Origin: Arthrobacter sp. SLBN-112 | GTDB lineage: Bacteria; Actinomycetota; Actinomycetes; Actinomycetales; Micrococcaceae | Reading direction: 5' to 3' | Length of the DNA: 64,000 nt | Assembly: GCF_006715225.1 (NCBI RefSeq) | Contig: NZ_VFMU01000001.1 | Location: forward strand, 806,001-870,000 | In this document: positions 10,267 to 17,479 of the stretch, in pieces | How the letters are laid out: every line of letters starts with the position of its first letter | How positions within the stretch are numbered: the first letter of the stretch is position 1 | Made by a program: the position numbers and the translations under genes | Notes under the pieces: model-generated | Told to the model about the DNA's origin: nothing | The model's database searches: none | What the model saw: only the letters and a program-made list of their open reading frames with translations

Positions 10267-10642
10267 CTAAACAGGTTACGTGTGGGGGCCGGAACGTTGC
10301 GCTGTGTGTCCGTGTACTACGGCGGGGGTGGATGCTTTGGGCCGTCGCCGCTGTGCGATTATTCCCTAGCTGCGCGTCTTCCCTCAATGCGTGGGGTTTG
10401 TCGATCCCAAATCTAGCAGACCAGGCCCTTGGTGAGAAGCCGGCCATCAGCGAACTCGGGCATGACTGCGATCGCTAATGCTTTTGCGGAACCTTGAGCG
10501 TTGGTCATCAGGGAATTGCCTGAGTCATGTGCACGCGGAGGACTACTAGTTTGGTTTGACCGCTGCGCGCACCTTTAGGCAACCAGAATCAGTGCGGCAT
10601 GTCTGCCAATTCAACTGGACCTTCACGGATAGTATTCGTTAC
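10267..10642. other. Divergent intergenic region, metH promoter and left border of accessory island
   Basis: Contains the likely metH promoter on the minus strand (TTGAGG, 18-nt spacer, AATAAT). On the plus strand it holds a possible -10 (TAGTAT) about 5 nt before the ATG region of the zinc-ribbon gene. Base composition drops visibly in the right half, marking the start of the AT-richer island. No RNA gene, repeat or integration site was recognised. Confidence 0.45.
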
Positions 10643-10843
10643 ATGCCAGATTTCCTGACCCTAAGCGACGCGGACTTGACCGAACTGGATCGAGCTCTCC
10701 GCAATGAGCGGTTACGTCGACGAGGAGCTTGGAAGCATTGTGAGAACTGCCAAGACCCATTCTTGGGCCGCGGTGACGCTCGCTTCTGTTCCACCCGGTG
10801 CCGCGTATCTGCTCACCGTTCCACGGAGCAGAGATCTCTATGA
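10643..10843 (+). CDS. Small zinc-ribbon / treble-clef protein (66 aa)
   Basis: MPDFLTLSDADLTELDRALR begins a short acidic helix, followed by a basic segment (NERLRRRGAWK) and a compact zinc site CENC...FCSTRC, with spacing C-x2-C-x12-C-x3-C. Such modules bind nucleic acid or mediate protein contacts. No Shine-Dalgarno precedes the ATG, so translation may be leaderless (a possible -10, TAGTAT, is very close). The stop overlaps the ATG of the DNA methylase by 4 nt (ATGA), indicating a two-gene unit. The coding frame is upheld by the intact four-cysteine motif. Possibly an accessory or regulatory subunit of the methylase; function not known. Confidence 0.6.
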   Translation: MPDFLTLSDADLTELDRALRNERLRRRGAWKHCENCQDPFLGRGDARFCSTRCRVSAHRSTEQRSL

Positions 10844-11746
10844 GCAATACGTTGACCGTGCTGGCCTCACGACGCTACGGCACGCTGTCACCTCTGCGCT
10901 ATCCAGGCGGTAAAGCTTCGTTGGCCGGATTCTTTGCTGATCTCATCCGAAACCTTGGACTTAGACAAGCCCGGTATGTCGAGCCTTACGCCGGCGGAGC
11001 AGGGGCTGGTATCGCGCTACTCCGGGAAGGCATTGTAGACCACCTCGTCATAAACGACATCGATCCCGCTGTCCATGCTTTCTGGCATTCAGTCGTAGAC
11101 AATAATTCCATATTTGTCGACTTGGTGAAGTCAACACCATTGTCCATCGTGGAATGGCAAAAGCAGCGCGAGATATCGGGCCGGGGACCAAGGAGACAAG
11201 CTCAGCTTAGGATTCGCGTTCTTCTTCCTCAACCGCACAAATCGCTCAGGGATATTGAACGCCGGCGTCATTGGTGGGCAAAAGCAAGACGGAAACTATA
11301 AAATAGATGCCCGATTCAACAAAGAAACCCTAGTCGAACGCCTTGAAACGATAGGCGCTTTGGCTGAGCGCATCACGGTCTCAGACTTGGATGGACGGAC
11401 TGTGATCCAGCACTACGGATGTGACAACACAACCTTCATGTATATAGACCCGCCCTACGTTGAAGCAGGGTCACGGCTATACCTGAATGCCTTTGACGGC
11501 CGTGACCACAAAGCATTAGCCTCGTCCGTCAAATCGGTGGAAGCGGCGCATTGGCTCATGACTTACGACACGGCGCCGTTGATCGAAAGCCTATACCGGG
11601 GGAACTTTCAGTGCAGGCTTGAAATCACATATTCAGCTCACCACCCAGGCAAAGCTGAGGAACTCTTAGTGGCATCCCCACTAGTTGGTAATGCCGTCAG
11701 GTCCCTCATGAAGCCAGCGGAACCGGCGGCCGCAAAAGGTGCCTGA
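10840..11746 (+). pseudogene. Dam/D12-class DNA adenine methylase, frameshifted
   Basis: The 5' part starts MSNTLTVLASRRYGTLSPLR with the AdoMet-binding motif LRYPGGKASLAGFF, then YVEPYAGGAGAGIALL and INDIDPAVHAFW. In this frame the sequence loses family character after QKQREI at about 11173. One frame over it resumes as YRAGDQGDKLSLGFAFFFLN, then RTNRSGILNAGVIGG and the catalytic motif YIDPPYVEAG (about 11450), to a stop at 11746. The shift is explained by loss of two bases or gain of one near GAGATATCGG (about 11168-11178). The intact product would be a class D12 N6-adenine methyltransferase of about 300 residues. The alternatives are a sequencing error or a recently inactivated gene. The 3' end overlaps the convergent ParB-like gene by 41 nt. 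Confidence 0.8.
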
Positions 11747-13208
11747 GTATCGGGCCAACCAGCTTCCATCCTTCACGTACATCCTCGGCTGATACTGCGG
11801 CATCTGAGCTGTGTACTACGAGGTTGAACCACTGGATGGACCCAGGCTTCTGGGCGCTGCCAGACTGAATGGAGTTGATGGTGTTACGCAAGGCCTTCAC
11901 ATTGCCATATGACTTGGACACTTGTGCAAAGACGGCGCTGAGCTCGCCAGACACGGGAGTCGACGAAGATTCGAAGTGAACTTTGACAGTCGACTCCAAC
12001 ACCGACCGAAGTAGGATTGCTGTCGCTGTCGGCAGGGTTGACAAAGTTATCCTTCTTAACTCGAAGTACCGCAACTTAAGGTTCAACGGAGCAGTTTCAT
12101 AGCCAAGACCGCTCAGATCCAAAGTGTCCCGCGTATCTGGATGATTTGGTCCCCGACTTGTAGCAGCCACCGCCCCAGGAACTGGCTGGGGCGAACTGAC
12201 AGGGTTCAAAGCGCCACTATGTCCGTGCTCAGCAGTCGAAGGCTTGGAAAAAGCCGGTGTAGCAGCTGGTGCTGAGGGCAAGTCTCCCACATGCACTGAA
12301 GTTGAATCATCGGCCCCAGACAGTTTTTCCAGTAAGTGCTGGTGTTCCGCGCTTTCCTTCTTAAATTCAAGGGAACGGGTATTCAACCGGCCGGCTCGGA
12401 ACTCACCAAGGAGAAACTCAAGTGCGCCTAGCTCACGCTTCGAGAGGTTCCCAGAAACTTTTTCCGGTGACAGCGTGGCCGGGACGAGACTCCCATCCTT
12501 GTTGAGAGCCACTCCGATGAAAGCGGCAATGTCCTTGTTTCGATAGGCGTACTCGAATGCAGACATGCGAAGATCGTCGCTGGCCGCATATTGGCGCAAA
12601 CTGTGATCGGAGAATGGCGCGGCAACCAAGAATCGTCGCACGACAGCCATCTTGATGAACCGAACGACGTTGACGCCTGGATACTGGGCTTTGACCCCCT
12701 CAACAGTGGTCTCTTCGTCAAGAAGGGAATAGTAAAAGGTAGCCTGCTGGTCCAGGCTCCACGGTTTTTTCGAAAGCCCGGTATGTAGCCGCGCGATGTG
12801 AGGTGCAGCCATGACCCGGTCCACGGCCACAAGCACACGAATGCGCTTGGGAAGATTTTGCGCTTCGACGGCATACCGTTTGAGGAGTGTCCGGACCTCT
12901 TGCTCATGACCAGGGATGAGTGTTGGGTCGTTCAGCGCCTTCAGGGCACTAACCCGGCGGTTGCCCTCGAGGACGGTGTACTTGGTTTTGCCGGATCCGA
13001 CGTCTTCAGCGATGACAATGGGTACCTCGTTGTCGAAGTACCCATCCCGAAGGATTAACAGTGCGGCTCCCATGACGTTTTCTGAAGCGAAGAGGTACTT
13101 CAGCGCACTTGCTTCGTCACCGCGCTTGGTTGGAATTCTATAGTTTTCGAGATCGAGGCTTAGGTCGTCTACGTCGACCTCCACCATGGGTAACTGCTCG
13201 TACGCCAT
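11706..13208 (-). CDS. ParB/Srx-fold protein with C-terminal domain of unknown function
   Basis: ATG at 13208 (MAYEQLPMVEVDVDDLSLDL) has GGAAGG 7-12 nt upstream; a TTG eight codons earlier is the alternative. The N-terminal ~150 residues are ParB/sulfiredoxin-like: DLENYRIP, a segment entering a beta strand (VPIVIAED), then the key VLEGNRRVSAL at about residue 80. In this superfamily the ExxRR motif binds nucleotide (CTP or ATP) or supports nuclease activity. A linker rich in Ser/Pro/Ala (about 315-385) leads to a C-terminal helical domain (SVLESTVKVHFESS...NTINSIQSG) with no function I recognise. It is not a chromosomal partition ParB: no parA neighbour and no conventional ParB helix-turn-helix. 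It is the last gene of the minus-strand island set. Confidence 0.75.
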   Translation of the reverse strand: MAYEQLPMVEVDVDDLSLDLENYRIPTKRGDEASALKYLFASENVMGAALLILRDGYFDNEVPIVIAEDVGSGKTKYTVLEGNRRVSALKALNDPTLIPGHEQEVRTLLKRYAVEAQNLPKRIRVLVAVDRVMAAPHIARLHTGLSKKPWSLDQQATFYYSLLDEETTVEGVKAQYPGVNVVRFIKMAVVRRFLVAAPFSDHSLRQYAASDDLRMSAFEYAYRNKDIAAFIGVALNKDGSLVPATLSPEKVSGNLSKRELGALEFLLGEFRAGRLNTRSLEFKKESAEHQHLLEKLSGADDSTSVHVGDLPSAPAATPAFSKPSTAEHGHSGALNPVSSPQPVPGAVAATSRGPNHPDTRDTLDLSGLGYETAPLNLKLRYFELRRITLSTLPTATAILLRSVLESTVKVHFESSSTPVSGELSAVFAQVSKSYGNVKALRNTINSIQSGSAQKPGSIQWFNLVVHSSDAAVSAEDVREGWKLVGPILRHLLRPPVPLAS

Positions 13209-13321
13209 GCCCTGCCTTCCAATGATTCGCAATTCCTCGCTACGTACTACTCCATCGAGGGGCCGCGGGAGTTGCCATTTTCCTACCGTAGTGCCCTTGG
13301 GGTGATGGGTCGACGAACAGA

Positions 13322-13771
13322 CTAATCAGTCGCAGCCGTGAGTCGTGCCAGTAGATCGTCACCGAGGGCCTTGTGCAGTGAATTTATCCAGACCGCGCTT
13401 CCTGCCCCGAGCCCAATGAAGTCAGTGATCCTGTCGTCCCAATAGTTCCTCTGAAAGTGAAAAACCCCATTTCGAAAACGCCTCAGAGAACCCAGATTTT
13501 CGGAATTGGACAGCAGTATTTCTACTTTTGGACTTGAAAGCGATAGTTCTAGCCAGCCCTCGGCAACGACGTACAGGCTCCCATACCAAAGGCTTAGGTA
13601 TGCAAATTGCTGAACCCAGTCGCTGTCTGCTGGTCCCGAAGCTAAGCCAAACTCCTCCGCGCGCGATCGATATAGCCGCCTTAGAGTTGAAGCGTTCAGA
13701 AAGTACCTGTGCAGCGAATGCACTCGCCGCAAATACTCGATGCGCTCATTCGCATCGGCTTTATCGCTCAT
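13322..13771 (-). CDS. HEPN-like hypothetical protein
   Basis: ATG at 13771 (MSDKADANERIEYLRRVHSL) is preceded by GGTGGAG at a good distance; a TTG 12 codons upstream is less likely. The 149-residue, mostly helical protein carries RNGVFH at about residue 100 in the context LRRFRNGVFHFQRNYW. This matches the R-x4-6-H signature of HEPN-fold ribonucleases or nucleic-acid-binding proteins, many of which are toxins or effectors in defence systems. The WVQQFAYLSLWYGSLYVVAEGW segment would be the preceding long helices. It lies 113 nt upstream of the ParB-like gene and in the same direction. HEPN assignment is by motif only. Confidence 0.6.
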   Translation of the reverse strand: MSDKADANERIEYLRRVHSLHRYFLNASTLRRLYRSRAEEFGLASGPADSDWVQQFAYLSLWYGSLYVVAEGWLELSLSSPKVEILLSNSENLGSLRRFRNGVFHFQRNYWDDRITDFIGLGAGSAVWINSLHKALGDDLLARLTAATD

Positions 13772-13951
13772 ACGTCGGACTCCACCAACTGATAAATTGG
13801 AAACCAAAAACCGACATCCAGACTGGACCCCAGCTCGGAGCAGATTTAATTGGCATTGATTCCCTTACCACTTACGTAACCCAGACTCAAGATAGCGACC
13901 TTCTTCTGCAGGATCGACAAACACGATCCACAGTTACTCTAAAAGCACGAA

Positions 13952-15049
13952 TCACATTGCCAACTTCTCAACAAACCGACGCCATCGAACGAGCTTAGCT
14001 AATTCTAGAACCAATATCTCATCATCAGCATCAAGCATCATGGAATTTGTCCGAAAAGACCGTGTCGCCACAAGATCGGTCATTCTTAGCCTATCAATCA
14101 CAAGGCCGTAAATGCGTTCGTCCCGAACAGCTTCCGCGTGGGCAATTTCTTCAAATGGCGTATCACGTGATGGCTTACAATTCTCGTGCGCAGGAAACGG
14201 AATAAACATAGAGTGCAAATACTCGCGAGACGGCTTAACCGAAAACCATTCCATGAAGTACGGATCTATGTATGATCGCAACGGCTTTTCGCGCCAGTTG
14301 CTACCCGAAGCCACCTGGCCGTAAAGGATTACGGATCCAGGCGCACGTCCGGCCAACTTTTTCCAAACAATTAGATCGACAGTCCCATCCTTTTCCGAAT
14401 CGGAACTCCATCCAGGGTCCTTCGCATGCAACTCACCTAAGTTCAATTTCGAAGAAGCAACCTTGATTGCTTGGCGCATGGTGGAAGTGTTGTCCGGACG
14501 CGGCCAGCCCATCCAGTACGCGCTGCCTCCAAGGATCTCCGGCGCCGCGAGGTAGGCCATCATCTGAAAATGTTTCGCGATCTCCCGATATTCCGGCTTT
14601 AGATGGTGGAGGCTTATGTACTTGTACTTTATAGACGAGATTAAAAGGCAGGAGAGGTAACAGTACTGAGCCGGCTTGGCAGCACCGTCCTTGGCTGATT
14701 CGTAAGATACGATCCACGATGTTCCGACGGCAGAAATTGAGAAAGGATAGTTGATTCCGAGAATCTCGCTACGATACTCAATTTCTTGAAGAGCCCGGTC
14801 TGCCATGTTCTCTGCGCGTTCGTCAAGGATGTGCCTGGCACCCTCCCCGTCGCGCTCATCATCCTCGTCGTAGCCGAGGTCCTCGTCGTCCTCATCGAAA
14901 GCTGGCTCGTCCAGCGTGGATACGGCCCTCAGAAACTGGCCCTTACTTATGCGCCCAACCGGCGATATGAGAGCACATAGCTCTACCCAGTCCGCCAGTC
15001 GACTCCGCGTATCAGTCGGAGAATAGGCACTAATCGGCATTCTCATCCT
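13952..15049 (-). CDS. Hypothetical protein, possible PD-(D/E)xK-type nuclease
   Basis: ATG at 15049 (MRMPISAYSPTDTRSRLADW) overlaps the 3' end of the upstream ParB-like gene by 20 nt and follows CTGAGG; a second in-frame ATG is two codons later. 365 residues. An acidic stretch (DEDDEDLGYDEDDERDGE) lies at about 53-70. Around residues 220-250 the pattern DGTVDLIVWKKL ... VILYGQVASGSNW resembles the core of PD-(D/E)xK restriction-type nucleases: Asp on one strand, then Q-x-A/K on the next followed by G-x-NW. The usual Lys is replaced by Ala, so activity is uncertain. It could equally be a degenerate nuclease-fold sensor. It is translationally coupled to the upstream ParB-like protein. Confidence 0.55.
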   Translation of the reverse strand, partial: RMRMPISAYSPTDTRSRLADWVELCALISPVGRISKGQFLRAVSTLDEPAFDEDDEDLGYDEDDERDGEGARHILDERAENMADRALQEIEYRSEILGINYPFSISAVGTSWIVSYESAKDGAAKPAQYCYLSCLLISSIKYKYISLHHLKPEYREIAKHFQMMAYLAAPEILGGSAYWMGWPRPDNTSTMRQAIKVASSKLNLGELHAKDPGWSSDSEKDGTVDLIVWKKLAGRAPGSVILYGQVASGSNWREKPLRSYIDPYFMEWFSVKPSREYLHSMFIPFPAHENCKPSRDTPFEEIAHAEAVRDERIYGLVIDRLRMTDLVATRSFRTNSMMLDADDEILVLELAKLVRWRRFVEKLAM

Positions 15050-16094
15050 CAGGCTGCCAAGCTCTAACTGTTGAATGGAGAACACGTGCGGACTTGCTAA
15101 TGCTTTCGGTGGCAATTACTAGGTCTTTATCTCCGTCGTAGCTACCGCTGAGCCGTAACGCTTCCTCCACATCTTGCACTAACTTATAGACCAACTGTGA
15201 AAACTTTGCCCCTTTGTCCTCAGCTACGTCATACGCGCGATTGAGATTACGTGTTGCCTCAAGGGTGGCAAGTGCTGCCTTATTTCCTAGAACTTGAACG
15301 AGCCGCCCTAAATCAGGATTCTGACTTTGAACTATCGCTGGTTCCTCACCTTGGCCGTAAAGCCAAGATGTAAGTTGGCGTAGCTTGGGAATCTGTGGAG
15401 CAGGTACCGGCGCCTGCGTCAAAAGACCCTCTGCGACGTCTGGTAGACCGAGGTACTCTCGTGTTGCGGGCCGAGAAAGCGCCGTGTACAAGTGCGAAAA
15501 GGCGAATGTTCGGCGAGAGATGGCCTCACGGTCAAAACCTTCATCTTCGGCTTGCTGGAGCACTTTCCACCCATTGACCAGGCGGCTTATGGTGTTGTGA
15601 TTGTCGCCCAGTCGCTGACTGACCATATCGATCTCGCCGCCGTCTTCAAGCCATTCCGCCGCATACCTAGCTTTGGCCAATGAGTCCCATTTGAAGGCAC
15701 CATTGATGTGCTTGAAGCCAATGAAGTCTCGAGCATCCTTTTTGGACTCAACCAAGCGAACGCGAACAAACGGTGGGCGCGCTAAGGGATTCAGAGGTTC
15801 AGGCAGTGAAACTCCGAGGGATACTGCGAGTCGAGGGTCATTTATGAGGCGAAGCGCTGCCAAACGCCGATTACCCTCGATCACGATGTTGGATGACTTG
15901 AGGACAATTAGTGGCTCGTAGTCGTACCAGCCGGATGTGCCAATCGACTGCACAAGTTCAGAAACGTCAGCATGGTTAGCCAAATACTCGATTGCCTCAA
16001 GTTCAGTTTCAAACTTAGCATCCGGCATTCTGGGATTCTCTAAGTCCAGACGCAACTCTGAGGGATCCTTGGGGACGTCTTCATTCACTTGCAT
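15030..16094 (-). CDS. ParB/Srx-fold DNA-binding protein, first gene of island operon
   Basis: ATG at 16094 (MQVNEDVPKDPSELRLDLEN) with AGGA just upstream; an in-frame TTG at 16172 is possible, but a likely -10 (TATATACT, about 16126-16133) falls inside that extension. 354 residues. The ParB/sulfiredoxin-like domain has SGWYDYEPLIVL and the nucleotide motif VIEGNRRLAAL at about residue 73. A helix-turn-helix-like segment follows (DMVSQRLGDNHNTISRLVNG, about 153-172), as in ParB proteins. The remainder is helical (KLRQLTSWLYG...LVQDVEEALRLSG). The two ParB-like proteins of this island share the DLEN.R.P opening and EGNRR motif but are not close copies. It is probably a nucleotide-dependent DNA-binding or nuclease component acting with the coupled downstream gene. 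Confidence 0.75.
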   Translation of the reverse strand: MQVNEDVPKDPSELRLDLENPRMPDAKFETELEAIEYLANHADVSELVQSIGTSGWYDYEPLIVLKSSNIVIEGNRRLAALRLINDPRLAVSLGVSLPEPLNPLARPPFVRVRLVESKKDARDFIGFKHINGAFKWDSLAKARYAAEWLEDGGEIDMVSQRLGDNHNTISRLVNGWKVLQQAEDEGFDREAISRRTFAFSHLYTALSRPATREYLGLPDVAEGLLTQAPVPAPQIPKLRQLTSWLYGQGEEPAIVQSQNPDLGRLVQVLGNKAALATLEATRNLNRAYDVAEDKGAKFSQLVYKLVQDVEEALRLSGSYDGDKDLVIATESISKSARVLHSTVRAWQPEDENAD

Positions 16095-16247
16095 GTCCTC
16101 GATCCGTTGTTGACTTCCTCGGAGTATATACAAAGCTGCGGTGCCAGAGGGGACAGTGGCTAGCTCGCGCAATGGTGCTATGCCTTCTGTGTGTCCAGAT
16201 GACCGGGTCGCGGGATGAGTCCCTCTATGGCCCGAGACTACTCGTCC

Positions 16248-17479
16248 CTAAACCTCCGCCGCAGGAGCAGCGAACTGCGCCTCGTACAACCGCGCGTAAG
16301 CCCCACCCACGGCCAGCAGTGAACCGTGCGTGCCCTGCTCCACGATCTGGCCGGCCTCCATCACCAGGATGAGGTCGGCGTCGCGGATGGTGGACAGACG
16401 ATGGGCAATAACAAAGGAAGTCCGGTCCGACCGCAAAGCGCTCATTGCCTTCTGCACCAATACCTCGGTCCGGGTGTCCACGGAAGAGGTCGCCTCATCC
16501 AGGATCAGCACAGACGGCCGGGCCAGGAACGCCCGCGCGATCGTCAGCAACTGCTTCTCGCCCGCGGACACGTTGGAGCCCTCGTCCTCCAGCACCGTGT
16601 CGTACCCCTCGGGCAGTGACCGCACGAACCGGTCCACGTACGTCGCCCGCGCCGCCTCCAAAATTTCGGCTTCAGTTGCCGAAGGCCGGCCGTACGCGAT
16701 GTTGTCCCGGATGGTCCCGCCGAACAGCCACGTATCCTGCAGCACCATCCCCAGCCGCGAGCGCAGCTCGCGCCGCGGCACCGAGGTGACGTCCACGCCG
16801 TCGAGCGTTATCCGCCCCGCATCCAGCTCGTAGAACCGCATCATCAGGTTCACCAGCGTAGTCTTGCCCGCGCCGGTGGGCCCGACAATCGCCACCGTCT
16901 GCCCCGGCTCCGCCACCAGGGAAAGCCCGGAGATCAGCGGCTTGTCCGGCGAATACGAGAACGACACATCCTCGAACACCAGCCGCCTCCGCCCAAACAC
17001 CGGTCCAGAAGAAGGAGCAGGCTCAACAGATTCCTCCTCCTCATCCAGCAGCTCAAACACCCGCTCCGTCGAAGCCCCCCGGACTGCAGCAGGTTGGCCA
17101 TGGACCCCAGCTGCGCCAGCGGCTGCGTTAACTGCCGCGAGTACTGGAGAACGCCTGCACATCACCCAACTGCATCGCGTCGGACGTCACCTGCAGCCCG
17201 CCCACCACGGCGATCCTCACGTACACCAGGTTTCCGATGAACGTCATGGCCGGCATGATCAGCCCGGAAATGAACTGCGCCCCGAAGCTCGCCTCATACA
17301 GTTCGGCATTCTTCTGCCGGAACCGCTCCCCCACCTCCTGCTGCCCGCCGAACACCTTCACCAGCGCATGCCCGGTGTACGTCTCCTCGATCTGCCCGTT
17401 CAGCTCGCCCGTGTTCTTCCACTGCTGCACGAACAACTTCTGCGAGCGCTTGGCAATCAGCGCAGTGACCCTGAGCTAA
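16248..17479 (-). pseudogene. ABC exporter (TMD-NBD) remnant, 5'-truncated, two frameshifts
   Basis: The minus strand encodes the C-terminal part of a heterodimeric multidrug/lipid exporter half: ALIAKRSQKLFVQQW, then IEETYTGHALVKVFGG and a membrane segment (FISGLIMPAMTFIGNLVYV). The nucleotide-binding domain follows with Walker [11 protein letters not shown]-loop LQDTWLFGG, signature NVSAGEKQ, Walker [13 protein letters not shown] and IAHRLSTI. The frame breaks near 17145 (GDVQAF then out-of-frame [20 protein letters not shown]) and again near 17077, where six Gs precede CTTCGACGG. Each break fits a one-base deletion. Homology stops near 17479, next to the LLM gene stop, so roughly the first 280 codons are missing. 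The NBD segment 16248-17165 remains open but is unlikely to be functional. Confidence 0.85.

Follow-up and report, generated by a model that had tools for sequence, protein, structure and literature searches.

An island of low guanine-plus-cytosine (GC) content at positions 10643-16094 of a 64,000-nucleotide stretch of the Arthrobacter sp. SLBN-112 genome (the whole stretch is called the window here; the source genome is a single 4.4-Mb contig) consists of two adjoining modules. Module A holds a treble-clef open reading frame (ORF), a Dam-type adenine methylase and the ParB-like protein ParB1, while module B holds a second such protein, ParB2, and its nuclease-like partner G387. With a little more confidence than doubt, we read the island as a restriction-modification-like composite, in which ParB2-G387 would restrict unmarked DNA and a second, PD-Lambda-5-like arm would share the mark. 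This reading draws on gene linkage, fold predictions, conserved residues, the change of methylase class beside the same pair and recurrence in phage and bacterial defence hotspots, from which we infer that the island proteins cut DNA, use nucleotides, recognise the mark and act on phages. The set is more than chance, because its parts recur together in other genomes.

Translations were searched against four profile libraries, including Pfam, NCBIfam, PADLOC and the phrog phage families. The features are as follows, with E values after the family names, lengths in amino acids (aa) and L numbers for loci outside the window.

10643..10843, plus strand: small treble-clef (zinc-finger-like) protein of 66 aa, whose ORF overlaps the start of Dam; Pfam treble-clef models match weakly, below the cutoff; the ORF in the equivalent place of L062 is 69% identical.
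10840..11301, plus strand: Dam-type (D12 class) adenine methylase, N-terminal part, first frame; PD-Lambda-5_B 3.5e-36, MethyltransfD12 1.8e-6; homologous stretch 10840-11193.
11255..11746, plus strand: Dam-type methylase, C-terminal part, second frame; PD-Lambda-5_B 9.5e-45, MethyltransfD12 8.4e-6; homologous stretch 11159-11716.
11706..13208, minus strand: ParB1, 500 aa, ParB/Srx-like N-terminal part with EGNRR and its own C-terminal domain; PD-Lambda-5_A 2.2e-31; 66% identity to L062 ParB1; placed in a tree.
13322..13771, minus strand: HEPN-like protein, 149 aa, with an R-x4-H motif (FRNGVFH).
13952..15046, minus strand: G387, 364 aa, winged helix and restriction-endonuclease-like domain; structure model, fold comparison and conserved residues; phrog_14650 2.9e-22.
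15030..16088, minus strand: ParB2, about 352 aa, ParB/Srx-like with EGNRR; phrog_3694 1.4e-65; ParB structures by profile; 76% identical in L023.
10331..16248, no strand: hotspot cargo interval, from metH to the 3' end of an ABC exporter gene; edges set by metH and exporter homology in 7 of 11 same-genus stretches.

Module B recurs as a pair. Scanning genome contigs with a three-sequence ParB2 alignment gave 23 loci, of which L026 and L041 are query genomes and 21 are new. G387 lies directly after ParB2 in 21 of the 23; the exceptions are L039, where the contig ends inside ParB2, and L043, with a split ParB2 shortly before the end of its contig. The spacing between the two ORFs in 29 pairs runs from -80 to +6 bp, with a median of -8, and in the window they overlap by 17 bp. 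As in restriction-modification systems, a methylase is encoded together with the nuclease-like gene: a D12 homologue belongs to the cluster at 19 of the 23 loci, the window's own being frameshifted. Among the other four, L044 has an N6_N4 methylase, the contigs of L024 and L043 stop shortly afterwards, and in L036 no methylase was recognised. The view of an earlier note, made from the sequence alone, that the methylase belongs with the set is thus upheld.

At eleven loci (L025-L035) ParB1, Dam, ParB2 and G387 follow one another on the same strand; the genes overlap as one operon, which has a single methylase. L039 shows this order as far as ParB2, where its contig ends. The eleven holders are recorded as Kocuria, Brevibacterium (two), Propioniciclava, Tessaracoccus, Helcobacillus, Sanguibacter, Mycobacterium kyogaense, Oceanitalea, an Actinomycetaceae metagenome-assembled genome (MAG) and a 'Deltaproteobacteria' MAG. 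At class level, ParB2 matches were found in 15 of 394 genomes besides its own; three of the best four, which cover most of ParB2, have G387 (L059 is the exception), and the remaining 11 are mostly ParB1-type proteins, usually with Dam. The reverse search with a G387 profile found 4 of the 394 genomes, all ParB2 carriers, and is not independent, because all four sequences were already in that profile. Single-sequence G387 scans of genome contigs and of viral contigs returned no relative, nor did scans of the viral contigs with ParB2 and with its alignment.

Phages and plasmids carry the pair as well. A tblastn search with ParB2 gave hits in 12 phage records and 4 plasmid records, several of them near-duplicates. 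Nine of these 16 were examined: eight (L046-L053) have a ParB2-type protein, always with an adjoining G387 homologue (detected in L048 at a laxer cut only), and the ninth, L054, has ParB1 and Dam. A tblastn search of phage records with G387 at E 1e-5 found none, yet G387 homologues adjoin the ParB2 phage matches at the laxer cut. In phage Wphi and in Escherichia coli W, the P2-phage cassette gp98-gp96-mth encodes a ParB2 homologue, a G387 homologue and a convergent methylase in the order seen in the window; it differs in that the methylase is a C5-cytosine enzyme, identities are about 24-27%, and the annotated neighbours include neither ParB1 nor HEPN. Three unrelated methylase classes (D12 adenine, C5-cytosine and N6_N4) therefore stand beside ParB2-G387, and since the pair keeps company with these different kinds, it may represent a type of restriction cassette that has been overlooked. 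The E. coli W cassette lies between the portal and replication endonuclease genes, a position described as a P2 defence hotspot (PMC9519451), and module B of phage Wphi is in this hotspot as well. Of 5426 complete E. coli genomes, 103 (including E. coli W) carry the cassette at >=99% identity and >=80% coverage, and 36 more have weaker matches (139 with any match).

G387 takes its name from the length of its longest ORF (387 aa, from 15115), the 364-aa form being 15046-13952. Its structure model, with a predicted local distance difference test score (pLDDT) of 84.9, suggests a winged helix and, at middling fold-comparison scores, a restriction-endonuclease-like fold, with MspJI and AspBHI among the closest fold matches; the AspBHI entry is titled 'DNA modification-dependent'. 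The active-site pattern is D..Q-x-A..K, in which D224 is invariant, position 244 opens a Q-x-A/T/G, and Lys254, ten residues further, is again invariant (32 of 32 sequences). This departs from the canonical D...(D/E)-x-K of the PD-(D/E)xK superfamily, and as the canonical lysine is absent, we claim G387 only as a protein that works like these nucleases, not as a canonical member. The PD-(D/E)xK assignment of the earlier note is therefore partly supported, by a probable fold, and fails in the lysine. Of the four libraries, Pfam, NCBIfam and PADLOC yield nothing for G387; its only hits are to two phage families whose function is unknown, phrog_14650 (2.9e-22) and phrog_3984 (1.1e-14).

ParB1 and ParB2 are alike over their first ~200 residues (hhalign E 3e-41), and a ParB2 profile of 31 sequences finds ParB among solved structures (4umk, E 1.2e-4; 6sdk, 0.0023), in agreement with the two ParB-type proteins that had been proposed. 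E71-G-N-R-R75 of ParB2 is invariant in 31 of 31 sequences. By our reading, EGNRR would sit at the Box II arginine needed for nucleotide binding in the ParB-CTPase-fold proteins of PMC12704722, where fusions of the fold to methylases are also reported; the window proteins differ in lying outside a canonical partition context. The ParB1 C-terminal domain has no convincing Pfam match among 16 members, and its candidacy as a HEPN domain of the window's kind was rejected (hhalign probability 0.1% against the window HEPN family profile).

Among named systems, PD-Lambda-5 (Vassallo 2022, PMC9519451) is the one that module A resembles. ParB1 matches its PADLOC A model (PDLC03998, 2.2e-31) and both Dam pieces match its B model (PDLC04018, 3.5e-36 and 9.5e-45), as do the operon and stand-alone relatives. 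In contrast, G387 matches no model, ParB2 matches the A models more weakly and over its N-terminal part only (3.5e-17), and the window's Dam is frameshifted and convergent with ParB1, their 3' ends overlapping by 41 bp. Because the B gene lies in two frames rather than intact, module A is called PD-Lambda-5-like, not a working member. The earlier statement that no named system has this set accordingly needs amending for ParB1 and Dam and stands for ParB2 and G387, which are nameless in the libraries searched. A ParB2-G387-methylase cassette was not described among the open-licence titles and abstract starts listed, a weak negative, and Fig. 4b of PMC9519451, on the contents of the P2 hotspot in the strains of that study, may include the cassette. 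The main text of PMC9122126 does not contain 'ParB' or 'methyltransferase', and PMC12707154 does not contain 'ParB'.

The two modules have different relatives. L062, from another actinobacterial genome, has the treble-clef ORF, an intact Dam and ParB1 arranged as in the window (69, 75 and 66% identity) and is without module B, whereas L023 has ParB2, G387 and its own convergent Dam. In the ParB1 tree, the window groups with L062 (support 1.00) among stand-alone ParB1 and Dam loci, and the operon sequences split off at 0.996. In the ParB2 tree, the window groups with L023 (0.96) and L024, and the operon sequences except L028 form a clade (0.991). L028 itself combines operon-type ParB1 and Dam (78 and 71%) with a more distant ParB2-G387, a further mix of modules. 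As the window's ParB1 goes with the L062 type and its ParB2 with the L023 type, the trees indicate that module A joined module B independently of the operon lineage, and thus that the window's set was joined separately from the operon set. At L062:7202-10542, Gabija-like GajA and GajB genes adjoin the treble-clef-Dam-ParB1 module.

The same distribution would suit two independent defence systems in a common hotspot, a PD-Lambda-5-like one (Dam and ParB1) and a ParB2-G387 that has lost its own methylase, with no functional sharing; we regard this as possible, if rather doubtful. Module A stands alone at five ParB1 and Dam loci (L061, L062, L064-L066), where, as at L063 with its ParB1-like fusion, module B is absent within 10-14 kb, and module B has its own convergent methylase in L023, L037 and L040-L042. 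The window Dam, analysed by its C-terminal piece only, groups with module A methylases (0.775 for window and L062; 0.965 with L061 and L066 added), and cargo at the site is varied. However, the eleven operon loci hold the genes of both arms together with a single methylase, and the set has been joined more than once, with L028 a further mix.

Weighing most heavily against a live system in this strain is the frameshifted methylase. In this assembly Dam is spread over two frames (about 10840-11301 and 11255-11746); each part matches the D12 family, and the pieces align to the intact L062 methylase at 70 and 73% identity. LRYPGGK and DPPY, motifs named in the earlier note, are both present on the plus strand, but in two different frames, a break that it missed. 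The intact L062 methylase as query (E up to 1) found only the two pieces and no second Dam in the genome, other methylase families not being sought. The frameshift may be a sequencing error, a recent mutation with the arms silenced or a sign of a modification-dependent mode; the broken exporter next door does not help to tell sequencing error from decay, because it is a 5'-truncated remnant.

In a modification-dependent mode, the nuclease arm would attack marked DNA (a type IV-like or reverse, Pgl-like scheme), which we consider unlikely. Consistent with it are the MspJI and AspBHI fold matches and a Dam broken beside genes that remain open. T-even phage DNA is modified. Also in favour of this mode, the protection given by PD-Lambda-5 is stronger for T-even phages than for lambda (PMC9519451). 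The frameshift and the truncated exporter would also fit decaying or non-defence cargo, that is, phage- or plasmid-derived ParB and methylase genes (for partition, regulation or anti-restriction) that are inactive here, and prophages commonly carry ParB folds in fusion with methylase domains (PMC12704722). This we find quite improbable: the other four long genes are open, the invariant residues are kept in ParB2 (31 sequences) and G387 (32 sequences), the annotated records viewed name no ParA next to the pair (many products in them are 'hypothetical protein'), and relatives often have defence-like cargo at the site.

On the minus strand the reading order is ParB2, G387, HEPN-like protein, ParB1, and the earlier note took all four as a single effector unit with the HEPN RNase integral. 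Its reading of the small protein as HEPN-like agrees with a probable fold and with the R-x4-H motif, whose R and H are invariant across the window, L067, L068, L069 and L094. One strand with gaps of -17, 180 and 113 bp would suit such a unit. So would L067, where a HEPN relative, a D12 methylase and a DndB-like gene are lined up, and the operons reported in 2013 that combine R-x4-H HEPN genes with ParB and methylase genes (MAE_28990 and Swt1-type ParB fusions; PMC3710099, Table 1). The window protein differs from these families in having no Pfam HEPN match at E up to 1, and the ParB1 C-terminal part does not match the profile of its family; the HEPN-like protein has no family match at E < 0.1 in the four libraries. 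No HEPN homologue occurs in 47 stretches with ParB or G387 relatives (15 of them only 2.5-4 kb), none of the four HEPN-relative loci has ParB1, ParB2 or G387, and HEPN as a core part was rejected. We hold the single unit to be highly improbable; it divides instead into the ParB2-nuclease pair and a ParB1 that belongs with Dam, as in L062. A methylase guarding the minus-strand genes, also proposed, still fits in outline. The viral contigs held no HEPN relative, and the L067 HEPN relative had no match in phage records. At L094:2895-7123, a HEPN relative lies downstream of an AAA-like ORF and an 870-aa ORF. No antitoxin family was matched by the island ORFs scanned (Pfam, NCBIfam, PADLOC and PHROG-type families).

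The site itself is a cargo hotspot. Eleven stretches around the exporter were chosen from same-genus relatives (61 genomes searched); in seven (L080-L084, L086, L087), metH homology stops at window 10325-10331 and exporter homology begins at 16248-16253, with differing cargo between. The cargo ORFs chosen for scanning include matches to Ppl (2e-106), to LmuB (1.8e-40; accompanied by a SIR2 gene) and to RmrA (2.5e-138), and others to a TIR-AAA protein, AIPR (5.5e-47), HSDR_N and PIN_8. PADLOC matches (E up to 1e-5) were obtained in four of six loci scanned (L081, L083, L086, L087) and for four of nine ORFs, with no match for the ORFs scanned of L080 and L082; the L084 cargo was scanned against Pfam only. 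Judged by these matches, the metH-exporter gap of relatives holds varied, often defence-like cargo, in keeping with the phage-defence setting first suggested. Beside the Ppl and LmuB genes lie two large proteins, L083:4635-8429 (1264 aa) and L081:10106-13876 (1256 aa), whose N-termini are alike by eye; neither has a PADLOC match, and the L083 protein, the sole one scanned there, has no Pfam match.

The low-GC block between metH and a broken ABC exporter was described correctly: GC is 0.49-0.56 inside (1-kb windows starting 10,500-15,500) versus 0.61-0.68 in windows wholly outside. Its minus-strand motifs are likewise all found in the translations, namely VLEGNRRVSAL (13208-11706), VIEGNRRLAAL (16088-15030), FRNGVFH (13771-13322) and DGTVDLIVW..GQVASGSNW (15046-13952). 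To the left, next to metH, an ATG at 10643 makes a reasonable gene start. To the right lies the exporter remnant (16248-17436), truncated at its 5' side and split over two frames, with a homologous copy elsewhere in this genome, at 538.6-539.7 kb. In 12 stretches (11 from the relatives, and the second copy), the longest match to the exporter ends at window 17462-17476. Extra partial copies of the exporter 3' end, 84-87% identical to the window copy, occur near the hotspot at L080:13057-13654, L081:8443-9325, L085:15498-16244 and L089:539-1416; they may be scars left when islands were exchanged by way of the exporter end. Direct repeats at the termini were rejected as marks of insertion, the repeats found being short, imperfect and inside the block.

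Under the composite reading, the Dam-type methylase would mark the cell's own DNA. The two ParB-type proteins would probably bind nucleotide via EGNRR, clamp or scan DNA and read the mark, and G387 with ParB2 would cut DNA that lacks it. ParB1, with its own C-terminal domain, would form a second arm of the PD-Lambda-5 kind sharing the methylase, and the HEPN-like protein would be an optional extra, an RNase that may serve as a back-up and halt the cell once the DNA arms have failed. More tentatively, and with more doubt than confidence, we propose that ParB2 and G387 form a restriction effector pair that has gone unrecognised. ParB2 would be a clamp switched by nucleotide, and it would load G387, a winged-helix nuclease whose catalytic lysine has migrated; the pair could be plugged into adenine, C5-cytosine or N6/N4 methylases. 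In some actinobacteria it would use the same methylase as a PD-Lambda-5 arm, and a single mark would then control two ParB-guided effectors.

If this is true, a widespread restriction cassette would have as its sensing half the ParB fold, which is known chiefly for its part in moving chromosomes. Judged by profile matches rather than by PADLOC rules, such loci would read as PD-Lambda-5 or as a plain methylase, and G387 would be missed. Since the Wphi cassette is carried by E. coli W and the other genomes counted above, the idea can be tested in a laboratory strain, and the metH-exporter gap is a place to look for more defence genes in the genus Arthrobacter.

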